From contig NZ_CP061379.1 of the NCBI RefSeq assembly GCF_015624505.1, forward strand, positions 3,286,001 through 3,350,000: a stretch of 64,000 nt of DNA, written 5' to 3'. Shown in pieces: positions 48,638 through 57,300 of the stretch. This DNA comes from Bradyrhizobium commune (lineage in GTDB: Bacteria; Pseudomonadota; Alphaproteobacteria; Rhizobiales; Xanthobacteraceae). Within the stretch, counting starts at the first letter, position 1; each line of letters begins with the position of its first letter. The notes under the pieces are model-generated. The model did not search any database and was not told the origin of the DNA. It was given only the letters and a program-made list of their open reading frames with translations. Made by a program: the position numbers and the translations under genes.

Positions 48638-49483
48638 ATGGTGCACCTTTTCCGGACTTCGCTCGGTGTGATGGCGCTCGCGGCGGCCGCTTTCGGGCCC
48701 AGCGGCGGGGCTTATGCGGCCAACGGTCCGTTCCTCGCGCATCAGGCGCTCTATGATTTGAGCCTTGTGAAATCGCGCTCCAACTCCATCAACAGCGCGC
48801 GCGGCCGCATCCTCTACAATTTCGCCGGCAGTAGCTGTGAGGGTTACACCTCCGAATTCCGTCAGGTCTCCGAGCTCGACAGCGGCGAGGGCAAGATCAC
48901 GCTGAGCGACCTCCGCTCCAATTCCTGGGAGGATGCGGCGGGGAAAAGCTACCGCTTCAAGATCGAGACGCGCATGAACGAGACCGAGGCGGGCCTGGTC
49001 GACGGCTCGGCGGAGCGCGACGGCGACCACATCAACGTCAAGCTGAAGCTGCCGGCGCCGAAGAATTTCACCCTGGACGGCAAGATCGTTTTCCCGACCG
49101 AGCAGATCCAGCGCATCATTGCGGCGGCCAAGGAGGGCAAGCCGCTGCTCGAGCTCTCCGTCTATGACGGCTCCGACGATGGCGAGAAGGTCTACAACAC
49201 CCTGACCGTGATCGGCCAGCCGATCCCGGACGACCGCACCGCTTCGCCCGATCCGTCGACGTCGGACGAGCACATGAAATCGCTCAAACGCTGGCCGGTC
49301 ACCGTCAGCTATTTCGACCGCGAGGCCCAGCAGAAGGAAGGCGAGCAGACGCCGGTCTATGCCATGTCGTTCGAGCTCTACGAAAACGGCGTCTCCCGCC
49401 AGCTCGTGCTCGACTACAACGACTTTGTCATCTCAGGCGCGATGGGCAAGTTCGACGTCAAGGACAGCAAGCCCTGTAATTGA
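48638..49483 (+). CDS. eipB: Cell envelope integrity protein EipB (DUF1849)
   Basis: The product is 281 aa with a signal peptide at about 1-28 (ending in YAA). FLAHQALYDLSLV, then GRILYNFAGSSCEGYTSEFRQVSEL, and the last SKPCN match EipB/DUF1849. In Brucella EipB is a periplasmic beta-spiral protein stabilised by a disulfide between equivalent cysteines and is needed for envelope integrity. Both cysteines are present here. The gene has no close partners; the adhesin locus follows convergently. Confidence 0.92.
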   Translation: MVHLFRTSLGVMALAAAAFGPSGGAYAANGPFLAHQALYDLSLVKSRSNSINSARGRILYNFAGSSCEGYTSEFRQVSELDSGEGKITLSDLRSNSWEDAAGKSYRFKIETRMNETEAGLVDGSAERDGDHINVKLKLPAPKNFTLDGKIVFPTEQIQRIIAAAKEGKPLLELSVYDGSDDGEKVYNTLTVIGQPIPDDRTASPDPSTSDEHMKSLKRWPVTVSYFDREAQQKEGEQTPVYAMSFELYENGVSRQLVLDYNDFVISGAMGKFDVKDSKPCN

Positions 49484-49510
49484 GGGCGGGATCATCCGTC
49501 ACGCGGCAAG

Positions 49511-49543
49511 AAAAAAGGGCGCAGCTTCAGTGAAGCCGCGCCC
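49511..49543 (-). terminator. Terminator of the heptosyltransferase-adhesin operon
   Basis: The stem gggcgcagcttc (49517-49528) and gaagccgcgccc (49532-49543) has one mismatch in 12 and a 3-nt loop. On the minus strand it is followed by ttttttctt. It lies about 50 bp after the adhesin stop. Confidence 0.85.
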
Positions 49544-49590
49544 TCTTGATGTGTGCTGCGAAGCAAGGCCCCCGTGGTCTCGCTCTGCCG

Positions 49591-51330
49591 TTAGGCTGCC
49601 AGCGCGTTGGGAGCCAGGCTTCCCGACGCCACCGCATTGTGCTCGGTGATCATCGTGCCGCCATGTCCATCCGAAGCCAGCGTGAAGTTCGCGGCCGCGT
49701 ACTGGCCGAGCAGGGATAGCGACGCCGAATTGGTACCGTCGCTGAGGGTTAGCGCTCCGCTCCCATTGCCGGGGTCGGCCGCATAGCCTAACGTCGTCCC
49801 TGCACCGAAGGCGATGTCCCTGAGGTCGAGCATGTCGGTGTCGCCAAACCCGGAGATCTGACCCGAGAACAGATCGGAGCTGTCGAGCTGGAGCGTGCCG
49901 TTTCCGCCCTGGAACGTGACATCGGCTGCTGCGCCACCTTCGGCGACATGCTCGAGACCACCCGAGATGATCGTACCGTTGGCGATACCGCTGTTCACCA
50001 GCTCGACGCCGCCACTGTGGACGATCGTTCCGTTGGTGATGCCGCCCGAGACGGTCTGAAGGCCGCCGCTGTTCACGACCACGTCGTTGGCCACGCCCAT
50101 GACGTTCTCCTTGCCGTGATTTCCGATCACGGTGTCGTCGACGACGCCATAGATGTATTCGGTGCCTCCGAGATTGGTCGTGTTGTCGGCGGTACCGTAG
50201 ACAAACTGATAGCCCGCGCTGATGACCATGTTGTTCGCCAGGCCGCCGACCTGGATCATGGCGTAGCCGCCGGTCAACACCGTGGCGCCGTTCGAGATGC
50301 CGCCGGTGTCGACGACCTCGTAGCCGCCGGAATTCACCGTCGTGTTGGTGGACGTCGCGCCGGCGCTCACGATTTCATAGCCGCCGCGGTTGACCGTGGT
50401 CGCCACCGAGCTGCCGCCCGCGCTGACGAACTCGTAGCCACCGCTATTGACGATCGTACCGCTGGTGAAACCGCCCGAGGTGACGACTTCGTAGCCGCCG
50501 CGATTGACCACGGTCGCGACTGCCAGGCCGTAAACCTCGACCTGCTGCGTTGCGCTTGTCAGGGTCGTGCCGCTCACGACGCCGCCGCCAAGCACGGTCT
50601 GCGTGCCGCCGGTCATCACCGTGTTGTTGGCGACGCCGTCCCAGACGATCTGCGACCCGCCGCTAATATGCGTACCGGACGCGGTGCCGCCAGCCAGCAC
50701 ATATTCGGAGCCGCCGCTCATGGTCGTGTTGCTTGCGACGCCGCCGCTTCCGATGAATTGCCAGCCGCTCGTCATCGTCGTGTTGATCGCGGTGCCGATA
50801 ACGTCCTCCTGGCCACCGGCAATGGTCGTTGCGCTGACCATCGCGCCGCCATAGACGGCCTGGTAGATACCGTTGCCGAGCGTCGTGCCGCTGGCCACGC
50901 CGCCGGAATAGACCCATTGCGCGCCGGTGCTCAGGTTCGTTCCGGTCGCGATACCGCCGTCATAAATGGCCTGAACGCCGCTGCCGGTTGTGCCGCTGGC
51001 CGTTCCGCCCGAGTAGATGTTCTGGGCGGCGCCGTCCAAGGTGGTGCCAATCGCCCGGCCACCGTTGAGGATGTTCATGACGGCGCCTCCGGCGATCGTC
51101 GCATCGATGTCGGTGCCGAACACGTTCTCGACGGCAAGACCGCCCAGGAAGGAGTCGACGGCCGTTCCGCCGGAATCCACCACCAGCAGGCCGCCGCCGT
51201 TTACGACCGTCGCACTGGCTACGCCGCCGGCATTGATTTCGAGCGTGCCGCTCCACAAGACCAAGGTCCCATCGGCGGTCGTCCCGGAGCCGACGTCCAA
51301 CGTCTCGCCGGGCTGCACTGTGTCAGTCAT
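49591..51330 (-). CDS. Strand-loop-strand (AIDA-type) repeat adhesin with type I secretion-like C-terminus
   Basis: The product is 579 aa. From about 15 to 460 it is built of 18-20-residue SLS repeats with a recurring G-G-x-x-x-V-x-x-G-G-x-x-x-x-T-x-V/I-x-x core, such as GGYEVVTSGGFTSGTIVNS. These are the O-heptosylation repeats of AIDA-I/TibA passengers. There is no signal peptide, no autotransporter barrel and no aromatic C-terminal residue. Instead, residues about 470-565 form the module DLFSGQISGFGDTDMLDLRDI...LTLSDG...LSLLGQYAAANFTLASDGHGGT seen at the end of type I-secreted proteins. Encoded 19 bp after the heptosyltransferase. Gly/Ser/Thr/Val-rich, with no Cys. Confidence 0.85.
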   Translation of the reverse strand: MTDTVQPGETLDVGSGTTADGTLVLWSGTLEINAGGVASATVVNGGGLLVVDSGGTAVDSFLGGLAVENVFGTDIDATIAGGAVMNILNGGRAIGTTLDGAAQNIYSGGTASGTTGSGVQAIYDGGIATGTNLSTGAQWVYSGGVASGTTLGNGIYQAVYGGAMVSATTIAGGQEDVIGTAINTTMTSGWQFIGSGGVASNTTMSGGSEYVLAGGTASGTHISGGSQIVWDGVANNTVMTGGTQTVLGGGVVSGTTLTSATQQVEVYGLAVATVVNRGGYEVVTSGGFTSGTIVNSGGYEFVSAGGSSVATTVNRGGYEIVSAGATSTNTTVNSGGYEVVDTGGISNGATVLTGGYAMIQVGGLANNMVISAGYQFVYGTADNTTNLGGTEYIYGVVDDTVIGNHGKENVMGVANDVVVNSGGLQTVSGGITNGTIVHSGGVELVNSGIANGTIISGGLEHVAEGGAAADVTFQGGNGTLQLDSSDLFSGQISGFGDTDMLDLRDIAFGAGTTLGYAADPGNGSGALTLSDGTNSASLSLLGQYAAANFTLASDGHGGTMITEHNAVASGSLAPNALAA

Positions 51331-51349
51331 CGCATCTCTCCTGTAAAAT

Positions 51350-52666
51350 TCACTGTGTCCTATTGCCGTTCTGCGTCCCGAACCCCGGGATCGCTTCGAT
51401 CGTGCGTCGTACTTGGTCGAAGGTGATCAGCCGCGTGCATTCGAATTGCCGCGGAGTGTCCTTGTGGCGCGGGCACCACAGGAAGTCTTTGTGGTCGAAC
51501 CTGTGAACAGGATCGTTCCAGCAGGAATTGCAGGCGTGGTAGTTGACGACGCGGTGCGGCGTCGTGAACTCATTGGTCGGATGCGTGAAGCCGCTGATGA
51601 GGACGACGGGCGTTCCGGTCGCCCAGGCAAGCCACGACAGCCCGCTCGACAGGCCGATGAAGAAGGCCGCGTGCCTGACCCAGCGCGCGCGCTCCTGGAG
51701 CGGGCGGTCGCCAGTCTCGTCCTCCGCTCCGTGCGGAATGTGGGTCCAGACCACGCCGGAGCCGTGAACGGGCTTCTGGTCGATACAGATCACCCGGTAG
51801 CCGGCTTGTTTCAGGAAGCGGACCGTTTCGTGCCAGCCATGTGGATTGTTCCAGTATTTGCACTGCGTGGTGCTCTGCACGGCGATGCAGACATAGGGCT
51901 CGGCGATCGGAGGGGTGTCGTCAGCGAGCGCAATTTGCGGCGGCTGTTCGGTCGGATCCACGCCGAGGATGTAGCCTGCGGTTCGATGCAGACCGACGTG
52001 ACGGAAGTCGCAGGGCTGAAACATCCGGTCGTGGTCATCGAAGAACAGCCCGATACTGTATGTCGCGTAGTAGCGGCGCGGATCAACCTCGCCGTGAGGG
52101 AGCAATGTGATCTCGGGATACGCCGTGCGGAACAGCGGGATGACCTTTTCGGACATCGTGCAGGTCAATCGGCAATTGTGCAGGGCACGAAATCTGGCCG
52201 CATAGGGAAACCATCCGATCGTATCGCCGAGCGTCACCTCGGGGAGCTGGATCAGGACGTCGCGATCGGCTGCCGAGTAGTCGTGCTCGAGCACGATCTC
52301 GTCCTTGACCCAGATCTGGAGGCGGATACGAACGAAGTAGCGCTTTGTCGAATTGATGCGGCCGGACTTGATCTCGGTCTCGAACAGGACATTGCCGCTG
52401 TCGATATCGCAGAGCCTGACCCGGTAGGGACCGTTGTTGTCGGGGAGCCAGACCCTACAGCCGTCGTTGAAGTCGAAACGAATCCCCAGCGGGCCGGACT
52501 GGGTCGGCACGTCGGCTGGCGGGCGGAAGGGCAGCTTATCCGGAACTGCCGGGGAGGACGTCCGCGTGCTCTCCGGCGGCGCGGCGGCGTCAGCCGATGC
52601 GGGCGGCGGTGGCCGGGATGAGCCGTTCGCAGCAGGAGCGGGAGTTGGGACGTGGGCAATATTCAT
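51350..52666 (-). CDS. Autotransporter strand-loop-strand O-heptosyltransferase (BAHT family)
   Basis: The product is 438 aa, cytosolic. After a Pro/Ala-rich disordered N-terminus (1-55) comes a beta-rich region, then a GT-B-like glycosyltransferase with LGVDPTEQPPQIAL, PYVCIAVQSTTQCKYWNNP and FFIGLSSGLSWLAWATGTPVVLISGFTHPTNEF motifs. Cys379, Cys382, Cys398 and Cys410 match the CxxC...C...C iron-binding set of TibC. TibC and Aah add heptose from ADP-heptose to SLS repeats. First gene of the operon with the SLS protein. In this organism the donor sugar may not be heptose. Confidence 0.9.
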   Translation of the reverse strand: MNIAHVPTPAPAANGSSRPPPPASADAAAPPESTRTSSPAVPDKLPFRPPADVPTQSGPLGIRFDFNDGCRVWLPDNNGPYRVRLCDIDSGNVLFETEIKSGRINSTKRYFVRIRLQIWVKDEIVLEHDYSAADRDVLIQLPEVTLGDTIGWFPYAARFRALHNCRLTCTMSEKVIPLFRTAYPEITLLPHGEVDPRRYYATYSIGLFFDDHDRMFQPCDFRHVGLHRTAGYILGVDPTEQPPQIALADDTPPIAEPYVCIAVQSTTQCKYWNNPHGWHETVRFLKQAGYRVICIDQKPVHGSGVVWTHIPHGAEDETGDRPLQERARWVRHAAFFIGLSSGLSWLAWATGTPVVLISGFTHPTNEFTTPHRVVNYHACNSCWNDPVHRFDHKDFLWCPRHKDTPRQFECTRLITFDQVRRTIEAIPGFGTQNGNRTQ

Positions 52667-52782
52667 CGGGAAGCAGTCGGCAATGGACTTCGTCTGATGG
52701 CGTTGGCGCGGGAGCTGGTTGCTATCGCTGTCGGGTCGGCGCCGTCATCGGCGTCCGAAGTTGATTGTGGTGACGTGCGCCA

Positions 52783-52817
52783 ATTATAATATGCGCATCA
52801 TATTTGTTATCATAACA
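52783..52817 (-). promoter_or_regulatory. Promoter and operator-like palindrome of the heptosyltransferase-adhesin operon
   Basis: On the minus strand, a consensus -10 TATAAT (52788 to 52783) has a 16-bp spacer to ATAACA (52810 to 52805). That -35-like box lies within a perfect 13-bp palindrome TGTTAT-C-ATAACA (52805-52817). A protein bound there would contact or mask the -35. The start site would lie near 52776, leaving about 110 nt of leader before the heptosyltransferase ATG. Confidence 0.5.
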
Positions 52818-53126
52818 CAGTGAGTAACGTTTTATTCCAGCTCATCCTTATGTTGTGGCGCGCGCTAACGCGTCGGATCGCCGCTATCGATTGTTGCGGG
52901 AAGGCGCCCCGCGGTATCTCGCGACGAATCATGACAAGTTGATCGGCGCGTCTCAGATGATGAGGACCGAATAGGTCCTATTTTGTAGATACGATGAGCG
53001 TATCGCGGAGTTGCTGTTGGTGCCGATCTGGATGCCAATGGGTATCGGAGGCGTTCCGCGAGCGGCACTGAAGAGGCGTCAAGGCCGGCGGTCCAATTCA
53101 AATCCACATTCGTATATGAGTCGCAT

Positions 53127-53155
53127 TTGGTAGCTATAACATAGATCGTTAATAT
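53127..53155 (+). promoter_or_regulatory. Candidate promoter of the type I secretion operon
   Basis: TTGGTA (53127-53132) and TAATAT (53150-53155) are separated by exactly 17 bp in an AT-rich stretch, 117 bp before the ABC transporter ATG. Each box matches the sigma-70 consensus at four of six bases, so this is only a candidate. Confidence 0.4.
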
Positions 53156-53271
53156 ATCATACTGATTTGGGCGCGGCCTGCGCATTGTGCCTGATGTGGG
53201 ATGCAAGGAGCAGACAATGCGCCCGTCGGAGTGTCTTGACGTGATGGAATGGGCATTTTGCGGGGCTGCGC

Positions 53272-55410
53272 ATGGCTGACGATGCGGTCCAGGCGTTGCC
53301 CAGTGATCCCGGCCTTCATGCGGTCGTCGCCTTGTTGCGTCTGAATGGCGTGGGGGTAAGCCCGGATCAGGTTCGGCATCAATTCGGCACCGGGATCGGC
53401 GTGACCGAGATCCTGCGCTGCGCCAAGGTCTTCGGTTTGAAGGCAAAGACGATCTCTGCGCGTTGGGAGCGGCTCGCCGGGATTCCGATGCCCTGCATCG
53501 CGGTCCTGCGCGATGGCGGATTTTTGCTGCTCGGCAAGGCCGGGGACGACAAGATCATTGTCCAGGCGCCGGAAGCTTCGAAGCCGGATCTCATGACCCG
53601 GGCCGAGTTTGAGGCCGTGTGGGATGGCCGGGCCATCCTGATTGCGAAGCGGGCACTCCTGACCGATCTCAGCCGACGCTTTGACATCACGTGGTTCCTC
53701 GGAGCCATGCAGAAATACCGGCGGTTGCTCGGCGAGGTCCTGGTCGGGTCGTTGTTCCTCCAGCTGTTCGCGCTCGTCTCGCCGCTGCTGTTCCAGGTCG
53801 TGATCGACAAGGTGCTGGTCCATCGCAGCATGACCACGCTGGACGTGCTGGTGGCCGGGCTGATTGCGATCGCGGTGTTCGAGACCATCCTCGGAGCGCT
53901 CCGCACTTACCTGTTCTCGCACACGACCAATCGCATCGACGTCGAATTGGGTGCGCGGCTGTTTCGGCATCTGCTGGCGCTTCCGATCGGATATTTCCGG
54001 GCGCGGCGCGTTGGCGACTCCGTTGCCCGGGTGCGTGAGCTGGAGAACATCCGCAACTTTCTCACCAGCTCTGCCTTGACGATCGTGATCGATCTGTTCT
54101 TCACCATCGTCTTCATCGTGGTGATGTGGTTTTATTCGCCGCTGCTGACGCTGGTCACGCTCGCCTCGTTTCCGTTCTACATCGCCATATCAGCGGGGGT
54201 CAGTCCCGCCTTTCGCTGGCGGCTCGACGAGAAATTCCAGCGTGGCGCGGAGAACCAGGCCTTCCTGGTCGAGTGCGTCGCGGGCGTCGAGACGCTGAAG
54301 GCGATGGCGCTGGAGCCGCAGATGCAGCGGCGCTGGGAGGAGCAGCTCGCCGCTTACGTCGCGGCGAGCTTCCGCGTCATCAGCCTCGGCAACACCGCAA
54401 GCCAGGCGATCCAGCTCGTCAGCAAGGTCGCGACCGCCGCGATCCTCTATTTCGGCGCCAAGCTCGTCATTGCGGGCGATCTGACCGTCGGCGAGCTCGT
54501 CGCCTTCAATCTCCTGTCCGGCCGTGTCAGTGCACCGGTGCTCCGTCTGGCGCAGATCTGGCAGGATTTCCATCAGGCACGGTTGTCGGTGCAGCGCCTC
54601 GGCGACATCCTGAACACGCAAGCCGAGCCCGTGTATACCCCGGGGCGGGCGGCGTTGCCCGCGATCCGCGGTGATATCAGGTTCGAGCATGTCACCTTTC
54701 GATACCGCATCGACGGACCCGAGATCCTCAGCGATGTCAGTGTGAGCGTGCCGGCGGGGCAGTTCGTCGGCGTCGTCGGCACGTCGGGATCCGGCAAGAG
54801 CACGCTCGCCAAGCTCATCCAGCGGCTCTACATCCCCGAGAGCGGGCGGGTGCTGGTGGACGGCACTGATCTGGCGATGGTCGATCCGACCTGGCTGCGC
54901 CGACAGATCGGGATCGTTTTGCAGGAGAACATCCTGTTCAACCGCACGGTCCGCGACAACATCGCGCTTACCGATCCCGCAATGCCGATCGAGCGCGTGA
55001 TCGAGGCCGCCAGGCTGGCCGGCGCGCACGAGTTCATCCTCGAGCTTCCCGAGGGCTACGACACGGTCGTCGGTGAGCAGGGCAGCACCTTGTCGGGCGG
55101 CCAGCGGCAGCGGATCGCGATCGCGCGGGCGCTGGTGACCAATCCGCGCATCCTGATCCTCGATGAGGCGACCAGCGCGCTCGATTATGAGAGCGAGCGG
55201 ATCGTGCAGCAGAACATGATTCAGATCGCAAAAGGGCGGACCGTCTTCGTGATCGCGCATCGTCTGTCGACGCTGCGGATGGCCCACCGCATCATCACGA
55301 TGGATCGCGGCCGTTTGATCGAGGACGGCACCCATGAGGAGCTGATCAAGACCGGCGGCCGCTACGCCACGCTGTTCCGGCTTCAGGCGGGCTTGCATGA
55401 AATCAGCTAG
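53272..55410 (+). CDS. Type I secretion system ABC transporter with C39-like domain
   Basis: The product is 712 aa with HlyB-like order. An N-terminal C39-like domain (about 1-130) comes first, in which the position of the catalytic Cys is occupied by other residues (GLHAVVALLRLNG), so it cannot cut a leader and probably binds substrate. A six-helix membrane domain (about 150-440) follows, then an ATPase domain (about 470-705) with Walker A GTSGSGKST at 503-511, signature LSGGQRQR and Walker B ILILDEAT. It powers export through HlyD and a TolC. It overlaps hlyD by 14 bp. The divergent SLS protein gene is its likely substrate. Confidence 0.93.
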   Translation: MADDAVQALPSDPGLHAVVALLRLNGVGVSPDQVRHQFGTGIGVTEILRCAKVFGLKAKTISARWERLAGIPMPCIAVLRDGGFLLLGKAGDDKIIVQAPEASKPDLMTRAEFEAVWDGRAILIAKRALLTDLSRRFDITWFLGAMQKYRRLLGEVLVGSLFLQLFALVSPLLFQVVIDKVLVHRSMTTLDVLVAGLIAIAVFETILGALRTYLFSHTTNRIDVELGARLFRHLLALPIGYFRARRVGDSVARVRELENIRNFLTSSALTIVIDLFFTIVFIVVMWFYSPLLTLVTLASFPFYIAISAGVSPAFRWRLDEKFQRGAENQAFLVECVAGVETLKAMALEPQMQRRWEEQLAAYVAASFRVISLGNTASQAIQLVSKVATAAILYFGAKLVIAGDLTVGELVAFNLLSGRVSAPVLRLAQIWQDFHQARLSVQRLGDILNTQAEPVYTPGRAALPAIRGDIRFEHVTFRYRIDGPEILSDVSVSVPAGQFVGVVGTSGSGKSTLAKLIQRLYIPESGRVLVDGTDLAMVDPTWLRRQIGIVLQENILFNRTVRDNIALTDPAMPIERVIEAARLAGAHEFILELPEGYDTVVGEQGSTLSGGQRQRIAIARALVTNPRILILDEATSALDYESERIVQQNMIQIAKGRTVFVIAHRLSTLRMAHRIITMDRGRLIEDGTHEELIKTGGRYATLFRLQAGLHEIS

Positions 55411-56830
55411 CAACAAGGTTGTGCCGTTCCCGGCGAGCAAGGCGCCTGCGAGAAGCAGGGACGAGATTGCGTTTCTGCCGGCGGCGCTGGAGATCGTCGA
55501 AGCGCCGCCCAATCCGGTCGGCCGTGCCGTCGGCGCCACGATTGTTGCGGCCTTCGCGGTTGCGATCGTCTGGGCTTGCTTCGGCACCGTCGACATCGTT
55601 GCGGTGGCGCCGGGGAAGGTGATCCCGAGCGGCCGCACCAAGGTGATCCAGCCGTTCGAGACCAGCGTCGTGCGTTCGATCAAGGTTGCCGACGGTCAGA
55701 CGGTGCGGGCAGGGGATGTGCTGGTCGATCTCGACTCGACGATGAACGAGGCCGAGCTGGGGCATCTCAAGAGCGATCTGGTCGGTGCCCAGCTCGAGGC
55801 GGCGCGGTTGCGCGCGGCGCTCACCGACGGCGGCGATCCCGTCGCCAACTTCCATCCGCCGGAGGGAGCTCCCGCCGAGCTCGTGCAGGTGCAGCGGCGG
55901 TTCCTGGCGAGCCAGACCGCCGAGCAGACCGCCAAGCTGGCGTCGATCGAACACCAGGTCGCGCAGAAGGAGGCCGAGCGGGCGACGATCACGGCGACGA
56001 TCGGCAAGCTCGAAGCGACGATCCCGCTGCTCCAGCAGCGCGTCGACATGCGCAAGCAGCTGTTCGACAAGGAGCTGGGGTCGAAGATCTTCTATCTCCA
56101 GGAGCTGCAGGATCTGGTCGGCCAGCAGCAGGATCTTGTGGTTCAACGGAGCCGATACAAGGAGGCCGATGCGGCGCTGGCTGCGCTGGTCGAGACCTCC
56201 ACCAAGACGACGGCCGAGTATCAGCGTTCGCTGTCGGATGACCTCGCCAAGGCCGAACAAAAGGCCGCGGGCCTGATGCAGGACGTCGTCAAGGCCGAGC
56301 AGAGGAGGAGCTTCCAGCGCCTGACGGCGCCGGTCGACGGCGTCATCCAGCAGCTCGCGATCCATACCGTCGGCGGCGTCGTCACCCCGGCGCAGGCGCT
56401 GATGGTGATCGTGCCGCTGGAAAGCCGGCTGGAGATCGAGGCGATGCTGTCGAACCGGGACATCGGCTTCATCGAGGTCGGCCAGGACGTGGCGGTCAAG
56501 ATCGATACCTTCAATTTCACCCGCTATGGCCTGTTGGACGGCAAGGTCACGAGCGTGTCGCACGACGCCATCACCCGCGACAGGCCCGCCGACAAGAACG
56601 GCGAGAAACCGCCGGGCGCGGAGGACAGCAGCGAGCCCAAGGGGCAGGAGCTGGTCTACTCGGCCCGGATATCGCCCGACCGGGGCCGGATGCTGATCGA
56701 CGGCAGATACGTCAATCTCTCACCCGGCATGGCCGTGACCGTCGAGATCAAGACCGGGACCCGCAGCATCATCAGCTATCTGTTATCGCCGCTGGCGCGC
56801 TATCGGCACGAGAGCCTGCGGGAGCGATAG
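55397..56830 (+). CDS. HlyD-family type I secretion periplasmic adaptor
   Basis: The product is 477 aa. One membrane helix (about 41-60) is followed by a biotinyl-lipoyl-like half (APGKVIPSGRTKVIQPFETSVVRSIKVADGQTVRAGDVL). A long coiled coil (about 110-295) and the return half (RLTAPVDGVIQQLAIHTVGGVVTPAQALMVIVP) come next, and the C-terminal beta domain matches HlyD signatures. It links the ABC transporter to an outer-membrane TolC-type channel, which is not encoded here. It starts inside the end of the transporter gene, so the two are co-translated. Confidence 0.93.
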   Translation: MKSASNKVVPFPASKAPARSRDEIAFLPAALEIVEAPPNPVGRAVGATIVAAFAVAIVWACFGTVDIVAVAPGKVIPSGRTKVIQPFETSVVRSIKVADGQTVRAGDVLVDLDSTMNEAELGHLKSDLVGAQLEAARLRAALTDGGDPVANFHPPEGAPAELVQVQRRFLASQTAEQTAKLASIEHQVAQKEAERATITATIGKLEATIPLLQQRVDMRKQLFDKELGSKIFYLQELQDLVGQQQDLVVQRSRYKEADAALAALVETSTKTTAEYQRSLSDDLAKAEQKAAGLMQDVVKAEQRRSFQRLTAPVDGVIQQLAIHTVGGVVTPAQALMVIVPLESRLEIEAMLSNRDIGFIEVGQDVAVKIDTFNFTRYGLLDGKVTSVSHDAITRDRPADKNGEKPPGAEDSSEPKGQELVYSARISPDRGRMLIDGRYVNLSPGMAVTVEIKTGTRSIISYLLSPLARYRHESLRER

Positions 56831-56898
56831 CAGCGTTGGCGTCAGGCGCGTTTCCGGATAGGCTTGCGCCCGACGAAGAAACGCCAGGGAACAACATC

Positions 56899-57300
56899 AT
56901 GCCCAAGCTCGATCATCTCCGCCCCAGCGGCCTGCATCACAATCCCGCTTACTCCCATGTCGTCACCGCCACCGGGGCGCGCACCATCTACATCTCCGGC
57001 CAGGTTTCGACCGATGAAGAAGGGCGCATCGTCGGCGAGGGCGATCTCGCCGCACAGACCACGCAGGTGATGCAGAATCTCGGTCTGGCGCTGAAAGCGG
57101 CCGGTGCGAGCTACTCGAATATCGTGAAGATCACGACCTTCGTGGTCGGCTACAAGCCGGAGCTGCGCCCGATCATCGGCAAGGCCCGCTCCGCCTTCTT
57201 CGAAGGCATGGAGCCGCCGGCCTCGACCCTCGTCGGCGTCTCCGCACTCGCCGCGCCGGAATGGCTGATCGAGATCGAGGCGGTGGCGGTCGCGGATTGA
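56899..57300 (+). CDS. RidA-family protein
   Basis: The product is 133 aa from ATG 56899, preceded by aggga. The fold is seen in TIYISGQVSTDEEGRIVGEGDLAAQTTQVMQNL, KITTFVVGY and PPASTLVGVSALAAPEWLIEIEAVAVA. The usual Arg of active enamine deaminases (R-P) is replaced by a PPAST segment; many members in this branch have lost that activity. It is a standalone gene between the secretion operon and the bipartite repeat. Confidence 0.88.
   Translation: MPKLDHLRPSGLHHNPAYSHVVTATGARTIYISGQVSTDEEGRIVGEGDLAAQTTQVMQNLGLALKAAGASYSNIVKITTFVVGYKPELRPIIGKARSAFFEGMEPPASTLVGVSALAAPEWLIEIEAVAVAD

Follow-up and report, generated by a model that had tools for sequence, protein, structure and literature searches.

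A heptosyltransferase, a strand-loop-strand solenoid protein and a type I secretion system form a putative glycosylation and export cassette in Bradyrhizobium commune

How might a predicted heptose acceptor reach the cell surface when it carries neither a recognisable signal peptide nor a β-barrel of its own? This question is raised by four adjacent genes of Bradyrhizobium commune, found in a window of 64,000 nucleotides (contig NZ_CP061379.1, positions 3,286,001 to 3,350,000; coordinates below are those of the window unless a locus is named) within a 7.62-Mb, single-contig genome. The genes encode a strand-loop-strand (SLS) β-solenoid protein, a bacterial autotransporter heptosyltransferase (BAHT), an HlyB-type ATP-binding cassette (ABC) transporter and an HlyD-family periplasmic adaptor. 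The family membership of the enzyme, the acceptor fold and the exporter is firm. Our analysis further argues strongly that the four genes work together as one cassette for glycosylation followed by type I export, a reading to which we assign a probability of roughly three in four.

The cassette consists of two divergent gene pairs. On the minus strand, the SLS gene (49591-51330; 579 amino acids, aa) follows the BAHT gene (51350-52666; 438 aa) after a gap of 19 bp, and on the plus strand the HlyD open reading frame (ORF; 55397-56830) overlaps that of the ABC transporter (53272-55410) by 14 bp. The 605-bp intergenic region separating the pairs (52667-53271), delimited from the ORF map and the sequence, is presumed to be a two-way promoter region. 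Profile searches assigned the four products of the window to TIGR04415, TIGR04414, TIGR01846 and TIGR01843, and these matches agree with the ORF map, bearing out the arrangement described in a first-pass annotation made from the DNA letters: an SLS gene closely behind a BAHT gene, then a divergent HlyB/HlyD pair. An upstream SLS start, giving an N-terminal extension that is in frame in orthologues and overlaps the BAHT stop, was rejected; an AGGAGA stretch resembling a ribosome-binding site precedes the ATG at 51330. In the source genome the cassette ABC transporter is the sole TIGR01846 match over the cut-off, the BAHT is the sole TIGR04414 match, and all seven TIGR04415 matches lie within the single SLS frame.

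The cassette is inherited as a unit. Four other genomes of the genus (L066/L183, L173, L174 and L179) have all four genes, identically ordered and at the same site, between an EipB-like and a RidA-like gene, which answers the first-pass suggestion to search genomes for such clusters; with the window's own genome, the occupied site was found in five genomes, all at one chromosomal position. The closest named locus, that of B. rifense (L066), has a transferase 89% identical and the same flanking genes, among the best 80 of 220 relatives. In five of five BAHT-free relatives compared, hand-chosen among genomes that have a close EipB, the EipB-like and RidA-like genes are directly adjacent, and homology to the window breaks off at 49483-49491 and restarts at 56869-56899. 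The segment present or absent as a unit (49492-56868) is thus bounded by the EipB-like gene (48638-49483) and the RidA-like gene (ORF 56836-57300, likely ATG at 56899). All four cassette genes are under purifying selection: against three orthologous cassettes, the ratio of nonsynonymous to synonymous substitution rates is 0.16-0.18 for the SLS gene, 0.11-0.13 for the transferase, 0.07-0.09 for the ABC transporter and 0.12-0.13 for HlyD. A gene set that recurs at one site in five genomes and is missing as a unit from five relatives is not due to chance, and these ratios, taken with the presence and absence as a unit, led us to reject both a pseudogene and a chance neighbourhood.

The linkage of BAHT to type I genes is not a one-off. 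Type I genes are present in the stretch at 29 of 39 BAHT regions of the genus (19 HlyB type, 10 weaker-scoring; 10 regions have neither); these regions were fetched from 48 match rows, and some contain BAHT gene fragments only. Two of the ten regions with neither (G493 and G603) have an HlyB on the same strand at a distance of about 13-15 kb. Among the 80 named BAHT loci, 18 have type I genes in the stretch; as these loci are the 80 of 220 relatives most similar to the window, their proportions are biased toward it, and many stretches are cut by contig ends. Fourteen of the 18 have an HlyB-like ABC transporter (>900 bits to that of the window) with HlyD, in Bradyrhizobium, Xanthobacteraceae, Reyranella, Enhydrobacter and a Rhodospirillales bin, and four have a weaker-scoring ABC transporter with HlyD, the one of these that was scanned (L095) being of the PrtD type. 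An order-wide TIGR04414 search of 397 genomes matched 26, of which 24 were partial, below the cut-off and dropped.

The transferase scores 635 bits against TIGR04414 (hepto_Aah_TibC; cut-off 200) and thereby belongs to the family by sequence, and its closest solved protein is TibC (4rap, 460 bits). In TibC, Asp110 is the candidate base, Thr226, Lys230, Arg286 and Trp305 contact the donor, and Cys339/342/358/370 form an iron finger (PMC4358343). The catalytic and donor-binding residues are all kept in the BAHT of the window, as Asp148, Thr266, Lys270, Arg326 and Trp345. The alignment also places Cys379/382/398/410 on the four iron-finger cysteines, as the first-pass annotation had read them. 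These residues predict a catalytically active heptosyltransferase that probably uses ADP-heptose. The residue governing donor choice is Pro300 in TibC and Ser294 in AAH, which takes both ADP-heptose epimers (PMC4358343); the corresponding Ser340 of the BAHT is of the AAH type.

Further features of the genome bear on the donor. The first-pass annotation, noting that heptose is often missing from rhizobial lipopolysaccharides, had supposed that the sugar might be new and had proposed looking for ADP-heptose synthesis genes. We found hldD and hldE side by side in the source genome (L189:5218-7695), near a gene of the GT9 heptosyltransferase family. The hldD product matches TIGR02197 over the cut-off (411 bits), and that of hldE matches both HldE domain models over the cut-off, with the whole-protein model PRK11316 just under it (482 vs 521). 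HldE domain II (adenylyltransferase) was detected in 256 of 265 genus genomes and over the cut-off in 251; since 11 of 14 control genomes match at the search E-value and only 3 over the cut-off, the latter genus count is the one to use. Together with Ser340, these findings do not support a new donor, and that idea was rejected on the adjacent hldD and hldE.

The predicted acceptor is a solenoid of the kind that known BAHTs modify. The SLS protein matches TIGR04415 at 196 bits and PF16168 at 70 bits, Pfam finding AIDA repeats, and it contains no Cys, one Lys and four Arg, with a computed isoelectric point of about 3.4. Glycines in the solenoid are spaced with a period near 18. The structure model (pLDDT, a confidence score, 89.5) contains the SLS solenoid passenger fold and best matches glycosylated TibA and Ag43, the top VIA-align match being TibA 4q1q; these matches span mainly residues 1-469, so that the fold of the C-terminal module is scarcely covered. 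The predicted heptose-acceptor solenoid comprises about residues 1-465 (49936-51330, minus strand), the C-terminal β module about residues 466-563 (49642-49935, minus strand; alignment A2), and the remaining residues 564-579 (49594-49641, minus strand) form a low-confidence tail with pLDDT below 50. The N-terminus, MTDTVQPGETLDVGSG, has no hydrophobic stretch by eye or by hydropathy (maximum 19-residue Kyte-Doolittle mean 1.25), and no autotransporter domain (PF03797) was found by Pfam and no barrel in the model. The protein therefore lacks a recognisable signal peptide and a barrel, both as first annotated. The partner gene of the BAHT in the window encodes no autotransporter; an autotransporter gene often, not always, comes after the BAHT gene (PMC4358343), which makes an autotransporter partner a usual rather than a strict feature of the family.

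The exporter is equally well defined. The ABC transporter scores 1031 bits against TIGR01846 (HlyB; cut-off 726) and aligns with HlyB 7sgr over residues 12-706 at 841 bits, and the adaptor scores 402 bits against TIGR01843 (cut-off 209). The ABC transporter has a C39-like domain (PF03412, residues 7-127) whose catalytic Cys is missing, the first 49 residues containing none; the C39-like domain of HlyB itself is inactive. Two TIGR01844 matches over the cut-off elsewhere in the genome provide TolC-type outer membrane proteins.

What would tie the SLS protein to this exporter is its C-terminal module, which matched no named family in NCBIfam. Among SLS proteins with a complete C-terminus (50 rows), 18 have HlyB in the stretch, 14 have a barrel and 18 have neither. 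All 18 HlyB-linked rows (15 distinct) carry the module at most 2 residues from the end (64-178 bits) and no barrel, and all 14 barrel proteins have neither HlyB in the stretch nor the module; in the 18 remaining rows the module is present in some proteins and missing from others. The module profile was trained on 15 Bradyrhizobium rows that include most of the 15 distinct HlyB-linked proteins, with L079, L086 and L113 (64-74 bits) and a close relative, L163, outside the training set; the barrel profile was trained on 5 of the 14 barrel proteins, and some stretches are short. Pfam independently found PF03797 in 14 of 48 C-termini in alignment A1, which holds the window and 47 of the 50 complete C-termini (L066, L155 and L167 were omitted, being the same genes as L183, L080 and L085).

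The module also extends beyond SLS proteins. It occurs in 68 of 1580 candidates of a protein search, in SLS, calpain, trypsin, GH16, immunoglobulin (Ig)-like and RTX architectures, and in four other proteins of the source genome, one of which carries RTX repeats and a GH16 domain; this agrees with the first-pass remark that it resembles the C-terminus of other type I substrates. The four proteins lie at G000 C1:5909459, 5895811, 5457063 and 7181463 (RTX-GH16; Ig-like with W_rich_C; a repeat protein; a 4492-aa open frame). Since copies of the module can also be internal (see below), it is more plausibly a domain that type I substrates share than the secretion signal, for which residues 564-579 are the likely site. 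A tail with the motif P-x-H ends 29 of the 1371 mechanically called ORFs with 300 aa or more in the scanned loci, namely 15 SLS proteins, 9 proteins beside HlyB (3 with RTX repeats) and 5 others. As a separate observation, a Hint_2 domain is present in 3 of 48 SLS C-termini from BAHT loci (alignment A1), and hint-domain proteins together with an O-heptosyltransferase gene are described in related polyketide clusters of Acetobacteraceae (PMC8776678).

In the mechanism that we propose, the BAHT would act in the cytosol, transferring heptose from ADP-heptose to loop serines, and perhaps loop threonines, of the SLS solenoid. The completed protein, acidic and Cys-free, would bear an uncleaved C-terminal signal that HlyB and HlyD recognise and, with TolC encoded elsewhere, export to the surface or medium in one step. 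There the protein would fold, or remain folded, to give a heptosylated rod whose role is probably adhesion or aggregation, as for AIDA-I, TibA and Ag43.

Several observations weigh against this mechanism. BAHTs appear to modify substrates that are folded or partly folded (PMC8151025), and such action on solenoids does not sit easily with a channel that takes unfolded chains. The SLS protein has no match to the RTX Gly/Asp nonapeptide calcium-binding repeats (PF00353) that are usual in HlyB substrates, and its tail lacks the P-x-H motif common in many relatives. In P0134, P0186, L069, L076, L150 and L151 the module has a copy that lies internally or has about 100 residues after it, so the module is not in itself proof of a secretion signal. 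No GmhA was found in the source genome, TIGR00441 giving nothing and SIS_2 one partial match below the cut-off; the isomerase step, the first of the donor pathway, is therefore without an assigned gene. A Caulobacter control genome likewise has no match to TIGR00441 or SIS_2. This points to an isomerase that has yet to be assigned. Lastly, the four other module proteins of the genome lie apart from its only over-cut-off HlyB.

This last point would also suit an alternative explanation, in which the genes are neighbours only, HlyB and HlyD mainly exporting other substrates while the SLS protein takes a different way out or is retained in the cell. HlyB is moreover far more widespread than BAHT, exceeding the cut-off in 164 of 265 genus genomes vs 37 with BAHT. 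We consider this explanation unlikely, given that gain or loss affects the cassette as a whole and that the module is found in every SLS row whose stretch contains HlyB. In a tree of 46 HlyB proteins, from which eight rows taken as duplicates of named loci were omitted, the HlyBs of the five compact cassettes also form one clade (100/100). On the best tree, the other BAHT-linked HlyBs require four label changes, of which well-supported branches force two or more, indicating that the BAHT-HlyB link arose or disappeared on more than one occasion. The SLS gene adjoins HlyB even where BAHT is missing. In 20 non-BAHT HlyB regions, hand-picked from the listed, high-scoring part of the genus HlyB matches and thus not random, three (L222, L224 and L225) have an SLS gene beside HlyB/HlyD and no BAHT in the 18-kb stretch, with module scores of 24.7, 74.7 and 31.8 bits (weak in L222 and L225). 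Six of the 20 have an RTX-type protein, by repeat pattern, in the stretch.

These three loci indicate that BAHT is not obligatory for the export of SLS proteins by HlyB, and they lend weight to a second alternative, in which the SLS protein does leave by the type I route while the BAHT either acts on a different protein or is dispensable for the SLS protein. Their genomes are outside the 37 BAHT carriers, and a sister arrangement, described below, pairs BAHT with other large proteins and has no SLS gene. In the window, the close spacing of the BAHT and SLS genes on one strand and their co-inheritance speak against it. The best VIA-align match of the solenoid is a known BAHT substrate, TibA, and every TIGR04415 match in the genome falls in the SLS protein, leaving this alternative improbable. 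Least tenable is a disguised autotransporter, in which a separate barrel protein would export the SLS passenger in a two-partner or split system: the genome does encode five barrel proteins (105-165 bits, in frames of 423-1033 aa) and two weak matches, but all seven are far from the cassette, the SLS protein lacks a recognisable Sec signal, and barrel and HlyB co-occur in 0 of 50 SLS rows, so that we regard this route as very improbable and reject a hidden barrel in or for the SLS protein.

The proposed glycosylation and export cassette is a variation on known systems, not a new kind of system. It resembles TibA/TibC and AIDA-I/Aah, the heptosylated autotransporters of E. coli, in its enzyme family, catalytic and iron-finger residues, SLS acceptor and placement of the transferase beside the acceptor, but it lacks their Sec signal and β-barrel in any recognisable form, and its exporter is of type I rather than type V. 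With HlyB/HlyD/TolC secretion of RTX proteins it has in common an over-cut-off HlyB with a C39-like domain, an HlyD, a TolC encoded elsewhere and an acidic, Cys-free substrate, whereas that substrate is an SLS solenoid without RTX repeats and the cassette has a dedicated glycosyltransferase. Fap1-type serine-rich-repeat adhesins are likewise glycosylated in the cytosol before export and have adjacent transferase genes, but are Gram-positive proteins with accessory Sec export and other sugars. Among RTX-family surface proteins, SwmA of Synechococcus and oscillin of Phormidium are described as glycosylated (PMC3034196), and glycosylation in this family is therefore not without precedent; unlike the cassette, the description of these two proteins names no BAHT and no SLS repeats, nor does it give their glycosyltransferases or where they are glycosylated. 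A literature search limited to open-licence PubMed Central found no paper on a type I-linked BAHT.

The BAHT family was defined on, and named for, autotransporters, and the cassette and its relatives tie it to type I export. Two questions follow: can a chain with many O-linked heptoses pass through an ABC exporter, and at what point, before or after glycosylation and export, does the solenoid fold? Secretion of Ag43, AIDA-I and HMW1A needs no glycosyltransferase, and the release, unfolding and export of BAHT-modified passengers are described as open questions (PMC8151025). With one over-cut-off HlyB, one BAHT and one SLS protein, the genome of this soil- and root-associated Bradyrhizobium offers a clean system for both questions. 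More broadly, and tentatively, BAHTs may be general cytosolic heptosyltransferases for surface proteins rather than an autotransporter family, a large alphaproteobacterial branch feeding hyper-heptosylated polypeptides to type I channels of the HlyB type (SLS solenoids) and the PrtD type (mostly with a BAHT fusion of ~710 aa and two large non-SLS proteins). If this possibility holds, type I channels must pass heavily glycosylated chains, and glycosylation may keep the solenoid export-competent until the C-terminal signal is made.

The second arrangement was seen in 14 rows from 10 distinct genomes (L095:3930-16343, L088, L093, L120, L171, L172, L175-L178, L180-L182 and L184). It combines an ABC transporter, of the PrtD type in L095, where it was scanned, with a long HlyD and a BAHT that is mostly ~710 aa long with a C-terminal extension (a weak tetratricopeptide repeat match in L095) and 431 aa in L088/L175. 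The place of the SLS protein is taken by two large repeat proteins rich in Ala and Asn, which look helical by eye and have relatives in all 14 rows. In a further arrangement with a giant SLS protein, an FkbM-family methyltransferase gene (TIGR01444; L085:6875-7678) lies antisense to the operon between HlyD and BAHT, and its product is possibly glycan-methylating; L166:10912-11775 apparently encodes the same protein, judged by its start.

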